Positions 4,465 through 27,207 of a stretch of DNA of 33,316 nt are shown one piece after another. The notes beneath the pieces are model-generated. The model was given only the letters and a program-made list of their open reading frames with translations, ran no database searches and was not told where the DNA came from. Numbering within the stretch: position 1 is the first letter of the stretch; each line of letters starts with the position of its first letter. Made by a program: the position numbers and the translations under genes. The DNA is from an uncultured Thalassotalea sp. (GTDB lineage Bacteria; Pseudomonadota; Gammaproteobacteria; Enterobacterales; Alteromonadaceae), in assembly GCA_938075435.1 (NCBI GenBank), contig CALJHL010000061.1, forward strand, positions 1 to 33,316, written 5' to 3'.

Positions 4465-4586
4465 GAATGTTTGTGCCTGAAATTATCTTTTTAAAAGGCC
4501 AAAGCACACTCTTAATTGCCCGCTTGCTTATCTATGGTTTGCTGTTTATTATTTAAGTCATCAGGTCTCTAGATAAATTGAGCTTA

Positions 4587-6428
4587 ATGAAAGCATTTCT
4601 CCTCGCTGTTATTGTCATCAGCAATTGCTTGTTGTTTTCAACTTGCTTTCCAGCTCAAGCATTAACAGCAGTTCACCCTGAACTAGCTAGCTCGGCAAAA
4701 ACGGCACATTTGCCTCGAGAAATTATTGTATTAGGCGATGTTGATCGCACATTCACTGAAGTTACCGAACTTTTAATGGAACTTGCGCTAATTGATGCCA
4801 ATTTCAATTGGATCGCTATCAATAAGCACTTAATTAGCTTGGGTAACTTAGCCAGTGGCGGTAAAGATTCTCGTCGACTAATTGAATTATTTATGAAATT
4901 GCATAAGCAGGCTTTCGATGTTGGTGGCGAAGTCAGCTTAATTTTTGGTGATAATGAAATCAAGTTAATGACCTCAGATTTTTCTCAAGTGAGTAAACAA
5001 GAGTTTAGTTGGTATATTGATCTTGAAATTCCTCAGGCTCGGCAATGGTTATTTGAGCAATTTCAAACCGCTAATGAGGGTAGTAATTATAGTGATTTTA
5101 ACCGGCTCTACCCGCCGGGGTTTATGGGCCTAATACAGGCATTTTCAATAAACGGTCACATTGGCCAATGGCTGCGCTCTAATGGCAAAGCGGTTATAAA
5201 AATTGCAGACAGTTTATTTGTGCATGGCGGTATATCAAAACAGACCCTAGCAATGTCGATATCTGAAATTAACCAAACCACAGCGGCGCTTATTACTGAA
5301 TACGATCAATTAAGTGGGCAATTATCTCCATATCATTTTTTACCGGTTAATAGCCAAGCCCCTTCTGAGCAGTTAGTTAAGTTGCAGCGATCTAAGCTGT
5401 TCTCGGCAACTGGGCCATTTCGTTATCGAGGTAATGTTTATTGCCCGGAAATTTCAGAATCTTACGCCATTGAGAAAATAAAGAATAAATTTTCTGTAGC
5501 GCAATTATTTGTCGGGCATAGCGTTAACCATCACCGCATAACCGCTCGCATTAATCATGCGGTAATTATGGCCGGTTTCGAGAGCAGCAACGGCCAATAT
5601 CAAGACCTCCCCGCGGCTGTTATCATTACTAAAGATAACATCAAAGCTCACTATCTAGGTAAGGCCGCTGAGCAAGATATTGGTGTATATTTCAACAGTT
5701 TTAAAAACAACCCCGCAGCGATGACTGACGCCGACGTTGAAACATTTTTACAACACGCTGATATTATCGACAACCGTCCGATTGGCGCCGGGATAACTAA
5801 GTCTAGAGTGTTAACGCTACAGCAGGGTGACAGGCAATTACGGGCATTATTTAAAACCTTTGATGCCAAACCTAATTTTGAAAATAAGCAGACTTCTAGT
5901 TTTTCTGACGTTAATTATGATCGTTATGGTTATGAAATAGCAGCCTATAAGCTTGACCGTTTGCTCGGCCAGTATCTTGTGCCGCCGACAACAATGCGAG
6001 TGGTTGAAAGTAAACAAGGCGCTATACAGTTGTGGGTTGAGGATGTTATAACCGAAAACAATCGTCTCGATAACAACATTGCTTATCGTGGTGAGTGTTC
6101 AATGCTTGGGGCATTACGAACCCGGGGGTTATTCGATGTACTAATTTATAATGTCGATCGTAACAATGGTAATTATCTTTGGGATAAGGACTTCGCCATG
6201 GTGTTGATTGATCATTCGCAAGCGTTTGGCACTAAAGTTGGGCTACCAGCCATGTATCGAAAAAGCAAAATGCACATATCAAACTTTTATAAAGCTAAAC
6301 TGCAGGCACTAACTAGCGAATTATTAACCGCACAACTTGGCAGCCTGCTTAATACAAATCAAATTCAGTCGATTCTTAAACGCCGTGATTATATCATTGC
6401 CAGAGATGAAAAATATTTTACTAAGTGA
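4587..6428 (+). CDS. Predicted exported fusion protein: degenerate PPP-type metallophosphoesterase-like domain plus C-terminal atypical kinase-like domain (HipA/FAM20/PI3K-like)
   Basis: ORF 4578-6428 (TTG start) or ATG at 4587. N-terminal hydrophobic signal MKAFLLAVIVISNCLLFSTCFPAQA. PPP-like framework IVLGDVDRTF...GNLASGG...IFGDNE...FVHGGIS...FRYRGN...LFVGHS. C-terminal FKTFDA, YEIAAYKLDRLLGQYLVPPT, LIYNVDRNNGNYLWD and VLIDHSQAF, resembling kinase Lys, Glu, catalytic-loop and metal-Asp motifs. Confidence 0.72.
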   Translation: MKAFLLAVIVISNCLLFSTCFPAQALTAVHPELASSAKTAHLPREIIVLGDVDRTFTEVTELLMELALIDANFNWIAINKHLISLGNLASGGKDSRRLIELFMKLHKQAFDVGGEVSLIFGDNEIKLMTSDFSQVSKQEFSWYIDLEIPQARQWLFEQFQTANEGSNYSDFNRLYPPGFMGLIQAFSINGHIGQWLRSNGKAVIKIADSLFVHGGISKQTLAMSISEINQTTAALITEYDQLSGQLSPYHFLPVNSQAPSEQLVKLQRSKLFSATGPFRYRGNVYCPEISESYAIEKIKNKFSVAQLFVGHSVNHHRITARINHAVIMAGFESSNGQYQDLPAAVIITKDNIKAHYLGKAAEQDIGVYFNSFKNNPAAMTDADVETFLQHADIIDNRPIGAGITKSRVLTLQQGDRQLRALFKTFDAKPNFENKQTSSFSDVNYDRYGYEIAAYKLDRLLGQYLVPPTTMRVVESKQGAIQLWVEDVITENNRLDNNIAYRGECSMLGALRTRGLFDVLIYNVDRNNGNYLWDKDFAMVLIDHSQAFGTKVGLPAMYRKSKMHISNFYKAKLQALTSELLTAQLGSLLNTNQIQSILKRRDYIIARDEKYFTK

Positions 6429-7759
6429 AGCCTAATATGAAAAATGAAAATATCCTGGTAAAAATATTAAAATTAGCGGCACCGATCAAGCCGGGAGAGG
6501 AGCGTAATGTTATTGCGCTTTTTGTGATGCTGTTTATGTTGATGGTTACCGCATATATATTAAAACCAGTCCGCGAGGAATTGATCTTAATGCAAGGCGG
6601 CTCTGAAATTAAGAGTTATGCAACTGCCGTTCAAGCGTTATTCTTATTAGTATTGATCCCTATTTATGGTTACTTTTCTCGTAAATATCAAGCTCGCAGT
6701 TTTATGTTAAGGGTGATTTACTTCAGTATTTTTAGTTTTCTAGGATTTGTCATCGCGGGCTTAAATGGCGTTAAAATAGCGGTATTATTTTATATTTGGT
6801 TGGGGGCCTATGGCGTTTTAGTGGTGTCACAGTTTTGGGCTTTTGCTTCTGATTTTTATCGTGAGGAAGATGGTAAACGGCTGTTTGCTCTCATCGCTTT
6901 TGGCGCTTCTAGCGGCGCCTTAGTTGGCTCTATTATTTCGAAAGCGATCCCCAATAGTTTAAATACCTACCTGTTATTAAGTATTGGCATTGTGACTTTG
7001 TTTTTATCAGTGGTGCCAGTGTACTTTACTAAAGCTGCAGATATAAAACGGCAGTTAGACAAACCAGCAGCAAAAAAATCTTGGTTAAATGCGTTTTTAT
7101 TGTTGAAAAAAAGCCGCTATTTAATGATGTTAGCCGCCTTTGTATTACTCAATAACTGGGTTAACAGCCTAGGCGAGTATTTGATCAGTTTTTTTGTCGA
7201 ATATCAATACGATATGCAGTTAGCCGCAGGAACGATGGCGGTGTCAAAAAATGCCTTTATTCGCGATTTTTACAGTGACTTTTTTCTGGCGGTAAATATT
7301 ATCGCAGTGTTTGTACAGTTTTTCTTGGTTTCGCGATGTATCCAGTATCTTGGCGTAAGGGTGGCGTTGATGATTATACCGAGCCTGTTGTTTTTCGGTT
7401 ATGCGACTATTATCTTTTTACCGATAATGCTGCTATTTAAGGTATTAAAAATTATTGAAAATAGTCTAGATTATTCATTACTAAATACCGTAAAACAGGT
7501 GCTGTATTTACCAACCACACGTGAGGAAAGGTATGAAGTACGGTCGGTTATTGAATCCTTCGGGGTACGTTTAGGTGATGTACTGCAAGGGGTTACCGTG
7601 TTTGCTGGGTTAAATATATTGTCACTTGCACCGCCTGACTTTCTTTGGTTTATCGTTATAGTTGCAGTAGTGCTTATGGTGTTAGCCGTTAAAATAGGCA
7701 ATAAGTATCGCGTATTGGAAGCCGAACATGCCAGCCAAGGAGAGCTTACCAAAGATTAG
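6425..7759 (+). CDS. NTP/NDP exchange transporter-like (ATP/ADP translocase/NTT-related) membrane protein
   Basis: 444 aa polytopic protein with PIKPGEERNVIALFVMLFMLMVTAYILKPVREELILMQGG near the N-terminus, typical of bacterial NTT-related proteins. GTG start at 6425 overlaps the upstream stop (GTGA); ATG at 6437 is an alternative. Confidence 0.72.
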   Translation: MKPNMKNENILVKILKLAAPIKPGEERNVIALFVMLFMLMVTAYILKPVREELILMQGGSEIKSYATAVQALFLLVLIPIYGYFSRKYQARSFMLRVIYFSIFSFLGFVIAGLNGVKIAVLFYIWLGAYGVLVVSQFWAFASDFYREEDGKRLFALIAFGASSGALVGSIISKAIPNSLNTYLLLSIGIVTLFLSVVPVYFTKAADIKRQLDKPAAKKSWLNAFLLLKKSRYLMMLAAFVLLNNWVNSLGEYLISFFVEYQYDMQLAAGTMAVSKNAFIRDFYSDFFLAVNIIAVFVQFFLVSRCIQYLGVRVALMIIPSLLFFGYATIIFLPIMLLFKVLKIIENSLDYSLLNTVKQVLYLPTTREERYEVRSVIESFGVRLGDVLQGVTVFAGLNILSLAPPDFLWFIVIVAVVLMVLAVKIGNKYRVLEAEHASQGELTKD

Positions 7760-26780: not shown

Positions 26781-27207
26781 ATGAAAAATTACAGCCTTGG
26801 CTTAATATAGGCAGCGAGTTTATTAGTTGCAACAACCGTTAATGCAGACACTCAAGTTGGGGTGGGTGTTGACCAAGGATTTGGCGTTAGCGCACAATTT
26901 GACAATATTAATGTATTTGTTGGTAACGATGGTTTTAGTGCCGATTATCTGTTTGAGCAGGGCTCTTTTAGCAAAGATATCCCATTTAATTGGTATCTAG
27001 GTGCTGGCGTATTTATTGATAATGATGAAGGCTACGGCATTGCGAATGCCATTAGGATTAAAATTATATTTTGCTAAAAATTGGAATGCATACGCACATA
27101 TCTCGCCGGAGGTAGATTTTGATAGCAATAATCATGGCAATAACAAGGATGATGACAACGTTGAATTTGGCTTAAGTGGTTCGTTGGGCGTACGCTATTC
27201 ATTTTAA
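26781..27207 (+). pseudogene. Decayed small outer-membrane/beta-barrel-like protein gene (in-frame TAG in the signal peptide plus a frameshift)
   Basis: MKNYSLGLI*AASLLVATTVNADTQVGVGVDQGFGVSAQFDNINVFVGNDGFSADYLFEQGSF...GAGVFIDNDEGYGIANAIR, then a frame change near 27050 to LGLKLYFAKNWNAYAHISPEVDFDSNNHGNNKDDDNVEFGLSGSLGVRYSF*. Confidence 0.75.

Follow-up and report, generated by a model that had tools for sequence, protein, structure and literature searches.

How could a bacterial protein that appears to be exported, and that joins a phosphatase-like half without its catalytic motifs to a kinase-like half, phosphorylate anything outside the cytoplasm? The question is raised by a gene near the start of the window, the 33,316-nucleotide stretch of DNA from an uncultured Thalassotalea sp. 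analysed here. The periplasm is usually regarded as free of ATP, so kinases acting there are unexpected. Our reading, to which we assign a probability of roughly 0.6 with no biochemical data at hand, is that the product of this gene is exported, has an active kinase and a dead phosphatase, and works with the ATP/ADP-carrier-type transporter encoded directly downstream. The folds, the loss and conservation of residues, the gene linkage and the co-occurrence on which this reading is built come from sequence analysis and modelling. A preliminary description, made from motifs alone, had proposed an exported pseudophosphatase fused to an intact kinase; the gene translates as one open frame, and every motif coordinate in that description matches its translation.

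4587..6428, + strand: putative exported pseudophosphatase / FAM20-like kinase fusion (613 aa; ATG at 4587, in-frame TTG at 4578 possible)
4587..4667, + strand: signal-peptide-like N-terminus, MKAFLLAVIVISNCLLFSTCFPAQA followed by LT (hydrophobic 12-mer with mean KD 2.77; the cleavage site is an inference)
4704..5637, + strand: pseudophosphatase half, residues ~40-350, with a PPP / Shewanella-like fold and without the metal-site residues (phmmer against the PDB, alignment, Foldseek)
5733..6425, + strand: FAM20-like kinase half, residues 383-613 (phmmer against the PDB, profile search, Foldseek)

Both halves resemble proteins of solved structure. In phmmer searches of the PDB the N-terminal half matched a Shewanella cold-active phosphatase (2z72) at 3.6e-14 and the C-terminal half a FAM20-type kinase (5xom) at 3.7e-8, so the motif resemblance in the two halves is not due to chance. 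An AlphaFold model of the fusion, built from an 11-row alignment (mean pLDDT 78.8, pTM 0.75), was compared with known structures by Foldseek: ranks 1-3 were 1v73, 2zbm and 2z72, which met our test for a PPP fold, and ranks 4-18 were FAM20 chains (E ~1e-8). These sequence and fold matches together rule out a fortuitous likeness.

The N-terminus is hydrophobic and ends in AQA, and in the model residues 2-24 form a helix followed by a low-confidence stretch (22-41). A hydrophobic N-terminal stretch was likewise found in 117 of 130 kinase-bearing frames of relatives, as judged by a simple hydropathy scan rather than by signal-peptide prediction. Absence of an export signal, which would have refuted the original proposal, is not what we observed, and these data support export of the window protein, which remains an inference.

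If the kinase half acts outside the cytoplasm, the gene that follows it may bear on the supply of nucleotide.

6425..7759, + strand: NTT/TLC ATP/ADP-translocase-family transporter, 444 aa (GTG at 6425, 4 bp overlap with the kinase stop; ATG at 6437 as an alternative)

The kinase and transporter genes share an operon, in which their frames overlap or lie within 8 bp of each other. The transporter reached 36.8 bits with Pfam PF03219 (TLC) against a cut-off of 21, passing the test for family membership, and MFS_1 scored slightly higher than TLC on the same protein. A Foldseek search with its model (mean pLDDT 85.0) placed NTT1 structures at ranks 1-4 (9j3n, 9j3l, 9j3m and 9j3o, two of them ATP-bound), ahead of all other MFS structures, and its profile matched Chlamydia NTT1 at 1e-19. 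In the transporter tree the kinase-linked canonical transporters formed a clade of 57 rows (support 99) that excludes the order's unlinked transporters; here the window and Neiella transporters were sisters, as their kinases are in the kinase-half tree. By sequence and model the downstream product is a putative ATP/ADP-carrier-type transporter; ATP/ADP exchange and its direction are inferred. It shares its Pfam family and an overall 12-helix structure with the NTT/TLC translocases Chlamydia NTT1 and Arabidopsis NTT1, but unlike those it belongs to free-living bacteria, where it lies next to a kinase inferred to be exported, and the ATP would be expected to leave the cytoplasm instead of entering it. 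Free-living bacteria carry NTTs widely, with functions described as unknown (PMC5381601).

Counts at three taxonomic scales tie this transporter to the kinase. Within the genus of the window the kinase was present in 6 of 17 genomes and the transporter in the same 6 (Fisher 8e-5). Among 296 genomes of the order, a close transporter occurred in 17 of the 18 with an intact kinase and in no other genome, and three genomes with decayed kinases only (G042, G067 and G107) lacked the transporter at the locus. The count across phyla took in 73 loci, each flanked by 2.5 kb or more: a transporter lay within 300 bp at 44 of 69 intact-kinase loci versus 0 of 4 loci with decayed kinases only, and anywhere in the locus at 46 of 69 versus 0 of 4 (exact test, 0.016). 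It is the intact kinase, not the phosphatase, that the transporter tracks. These counts are not phylogenetically independent. An origin of the linkage in inherited synteny alone is weakened by the varied gene orders and orientations, the 44 close transporters being co-directional and downstream (21), convergent (19), co-directional and upstream (3) or divergent (1). The carrier is not always adjacent, because 23 of the 69 intact-kinase loci showed no transporter in the stretch examined, the rest of those genomes being outside the count; nor did we find one near the locus of a second fusion in the window genome (L031).

A competing account retains the exported kinase but has the transporter move another nucleotide or metabolite, for instance by reclaiming ADP or nucleotides or importing a phosphorylated product, with ATP arriving from lysed cells or by leakage. 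The nearly equal score of the window transporter as a general MFS protein leaves room for this, its substrate residues not having been mapped onto NTT1, yet the four best structure matches are all to NTT1. The nucleotides carried differ among members of the NTT family (PMC5381601), and at about one third of the loci with an intact kinase no transporter is close by, but linkage goes with the intact kinase and not with the phosphatase. We consider this account unlikely, although of the alternatives it survives best.

The reading of an ATP-fuelled kinase depends further on the C-terminal half, whose catalytic loop, YNVDRNNGN, lies at 6147-6173.

5853..5855, + strand: Lys423 of LFKTFD, candidate ATP-binding Lys (translation, alignment)
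5934..5936, + strand: Glu450 of YEIAAY, aligned with AEIAAF of FAM20 (5xom)
6156..6158, + strand: Asp524 of YNVDRNNGN, aligned with the Asp of NADRH in FAM20
6210..6212, + strand: Asp542 of LIDH (LIDHSQAF), aligned with the metal Asp of LDN in FAM20

A profile of the intact kinase members matched Hydra Fam20 (5xom) in the PDB at 1.5e-12 and aligned Asp524 and Asp542 with the FAM20 base and metal Asp, the alignment that served as our test of the assignment; the catalytic base in Fam20B is Asp299 (PMC5865150). The kinase fold first proposed from motifs is borne out by the model, for which FAM20 and PI4KII were the closest solved structures to the C-terminal half. Among the folds then named, FAM20 proved the best choice and HipA did not hold: Pfam HipA_2 scored 16.6 bits against a cut-off of 27, and HipA was not among the best structure matches. 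The window protein had no match to Pfam PF06702 (Fam20C) even at E<=1, and no member tested reached the Fam20C cut-off, the best relatives scoring 14.5 and 18.3 bits against 26.8. The type of substrate therefore cannot be transferred from FAM20. The kinase half appears intact and, as far as alignment and model allow us to infer, would be active. It has in common with the animal FAM20 kinases (FAM20A/B/C and Hydra Fam20) the kinase fold, the positions of the base and metal Asp, the AEIAAF-type helix and, by inference, action outside the cytosol. It differs from them in being bacterial, in having a PPP phosphatase and an NTT transporter as fused or linked partners, and in falling below the Fam20C cut-off.

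A kinase fold need not denote a kinase. The C-terminal half could carry out other chemistry, for instance AMPylation or glutamylation of the kind known from SelO and SidJ, while still using exported ATP; kinase-fold proteins with different activities are known (PMC10870513), and the catalytic loop of the fusions is DRNxxN instead of DRH. We find this improbable given that the base and metal Asp are conserved at the standard positions and that a PPP phosphatase partner fits the removal of phosphate.

The two halves, one of them a predicted kinase, may also be covalently joined beyond the peptide chain.

5442..5444, + strand: Cys286, proposed disulfide partner of Cys504 (Cys pair in 61 of 64 fusions; the bond is an inference)
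6096..6098, + strand: Cys504, kinase-half partner of Cys286

Both positions are Cys in those 61 fusions and both lack Cys in the remaining 3, and position 504 is Cys in only 1 of 58 unfused kinases. Because the pair tracks the fusions and is rare at 504 in unfused kinases, an interdomain disulfide formed in an oxidising compartment is suggested by the alignment. Several conserved disulfides, a trait of FAM20, were not found: in contrast to FAM20, the mature window protein has only these two Cys after its N-terminal segment.

The N-terminal half retains FVHGGIS, FRYRGN and FVGHS in translation, and has lost three other motifs.

4734..4748, + strand: eroded GDxHG, reading GDVDR (residues 50-54; translation, alignment)
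4842..4862, + strand: eroded GDxxDRG, reading GNLASGG (residues 86-92; translation, alignment)
4947..4958, + strand: eroded GNHE, reading GDNE (residues 121-124; translation, alignment)

Canonical GDxHG, GDxxDRG and GNHE are absent from the window N-terminal half and present in nearly all full-length relatives, making the window protein a lineage-specific pseudophosphatase. Full-length homologues align along its entire length. In the first set, from the same order, all kept residues of the three motif types in matching columns, and the window protein alone had eroded motifs. The canonical residues of homologues fall on GDVDR, GNLASGG and GDNE and not elsewhere, as the preliminary description required of a pseudophosphatase; misaligned motifs are thereby ruled out, and the eroded motifs are no error of reading. 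In fold and motif order this half resembles the Shewanella-like PPP, a cold-active protein-tyrosine phosphatase (1v73, 2z72, 2zbm), whereas it has lost the metal and catalytic motifs and the known enzyme has no kinase half.

In the wider set of homologues only four proteins had lost multiple motifs: the window protein, the second copies at L111 and L184, and L153. They occupy three places in the kinase-half tree. L190, truncated by a contig end, and L139, which differs in one residue only, were not counted as pseudophosphatases. In the same tree the window protein is sister to Neiella proteins (support 99) in which both halves are intact, so its phosphatase loss is recent. Its phosphatase half evolves faster, with 33-37% identity to L031, L035, L036 and L038 versus 40-42% for Neiella; its kinase half does not, the kinase halves of the window and Neiella proteins being equally diverged from outgroups. 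The window genome also encodes an intact fusion paralogue (the L031 locus, on contig C275). The gene could instead be a relic in decay, once bifunctional, now without phosphatase activity and disappearing as this intact paralogue does its job. That would suit the faster phosphatase half and the existence of the paralogue but is highly improbable, since the frame is open across 613 codons, the divergence of the kinase half does not exceed that in intact Neiella proteins, the fold and both Cys are retained, and at least two further, independent losses of the phosphatase left the kinase intact.

A fusion with an intact-looking kinase and a dead phosphatase is one of several states in the family. 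Scanning named genomes gave 216 relatives, of which 80 were kept, from Neiella, Halieaceae, Kangiella, Aliikangiella, Lysobacter, a deltaproteobacterial bin, Acidobacteriota and Aminicenantes; a plasmid search returned one weak phosphatase match only. Sixty loci spanned at least 9 kb, with a transporter in 36 and a phosphatase in 47, 37 of the latter having the fusion. In Acidobacteriota and Aminicenantes the kinase, phosphatase and transporter are separate neighbouring genes; in Aminicenantes the phosphatase comes first, followed by a kinase-like gene that lacks the base Asp, the transporter and a tandem of intact kinases. The L041 relative is a phosphatase with an fn3 domain and no kinase. 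Kinase residues have been lost as well: the base Asp, or both Asp, in L032, L033, L034, L040, the first copy of L111, L115, L175, the first copy of L184 and L211; the metal Asp in L114; and the Lys in some acidobacterial kinases. A separate intact kinase gene lies nearby at L032, L033 and L034. At L111 and L184 the order is a phosphatase with a dead kinase, the transporter, and a dead phosphatase with an intact kinase. Judged by these residues, several lineages show reciprocal decay of the kinase and the phosphatase. Either activity can go while its domain stays, because dead-kinase and dead-phosphatase fusions both occur. The ancestral form of the fusion family was probably bifunctional.

We propose that the fusion is exported and would fold in the periplasm with a Cys286-Cys504 disulfide between its domains. 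The NTT transporter would swap cytoplasmic ATP for periplasmic ADP, supplying nucleotide to the kinase outside the cytoplasm, and the FAM20-like half, through Asp524 and Asp542, would transfer phosphate to some protein, glycan or lipid of the periplasm or envelope; the substrate is inferred only in these general terms. In most relatives the phosphatase half would undo the phosphorylation, giving a bifunctional kinase/phosphatase. In the window lineage that half, its metal site lost, may be retained as a scaffold or, as is plausible though inferred, for substrate binding or regulation, and the intact C275 paralogue may supply the reverse reaction. Activation of an active partner by a pseudokinase is known from FAM20A (PMC5865150), an analogy that suggests, by inference only, that dead halves in this family may be regulatory.

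The eukaryotic ER solves a like problem: SLC35B1/AXER imports luminal ATP for secretory kinases. The logic of an exported kinase with ATP/ADP exchange into its compartment is the same, but the transporter family is unrelated and the compartment different. AceK and HPr kinase/phosphorylase are bifunctional, cytoplasmic enzymes with one active site; they too combine opposing activities on one polypeptide, whereas the family of the fusion uses two unrelated domains, is inferred to be exported, and loses either activity reciprocally. The parts belong to known families, and the kinase-phosphatase-carrier combination is undescribed in the open literature searched, which leaves out most subscription papers and preprints.

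We give about even odds to the broader proposal that bacteria of several phyla run a dedicated, ATP-fuelled phosphorylation cycle outside the cytoplasm, in which the FAM20-like kinase and the PPP phosphatase are both exported and an NTT carrier sends out ATP in exchange for ADP, with the pseudoenzyme phosphatase of the window variant perhaps steering or regulating the kinase. If true, the conserved linkage would signify reversible phosphorylation of bacterial envelope components, and it would provide a role for the NTT transporters of free-living bacteria, whose function has been called unknown (PMC5381601). The repeated reciprocal loss of either activity in one fusion family is a natural experiment on pseudoenzyme roles.

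Several loci had additional features. Recurrent neighbours in Kangiella and Halieaceae were rejected as clues to the substrate, as they look like ordinary chromosomal synteny. In Aminicenantes an opposite-strand lipoprotein with phytase-like/SdiA-regulated matches lies between the transporter and the kinases (L195:4060-4923; also L181, L200, L202, L206 and L213) and is a possible substrate or sensor. A tandem of three FAM20-like kinases, all intact, is followed by a convergent HATPase_c_2 gene at L195:5044-7572 and its equivalents. A DUF3016 lipoprotein-like gene occurs near three fusion loci (L032:11050-11562, L035:4850-5353 and L036:5103-5747). The Kangiella and Parahaliea transporters (L103:6796-8478 and L137:8104-10779) carry an extra C-terminal He_PIG (Ig-like) domain, and some acidobacterial transporters have HEAT repeats. 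Elsewhere in the window, 26781-27207 looks, read by eye, like a decayed gene: the remnant of a small exported protein with an in-frame TAG in its signal-like N-terminus (MKNYSLGLI, stop, AASLLVATTVNA) and a frame that seems broken near 27060.
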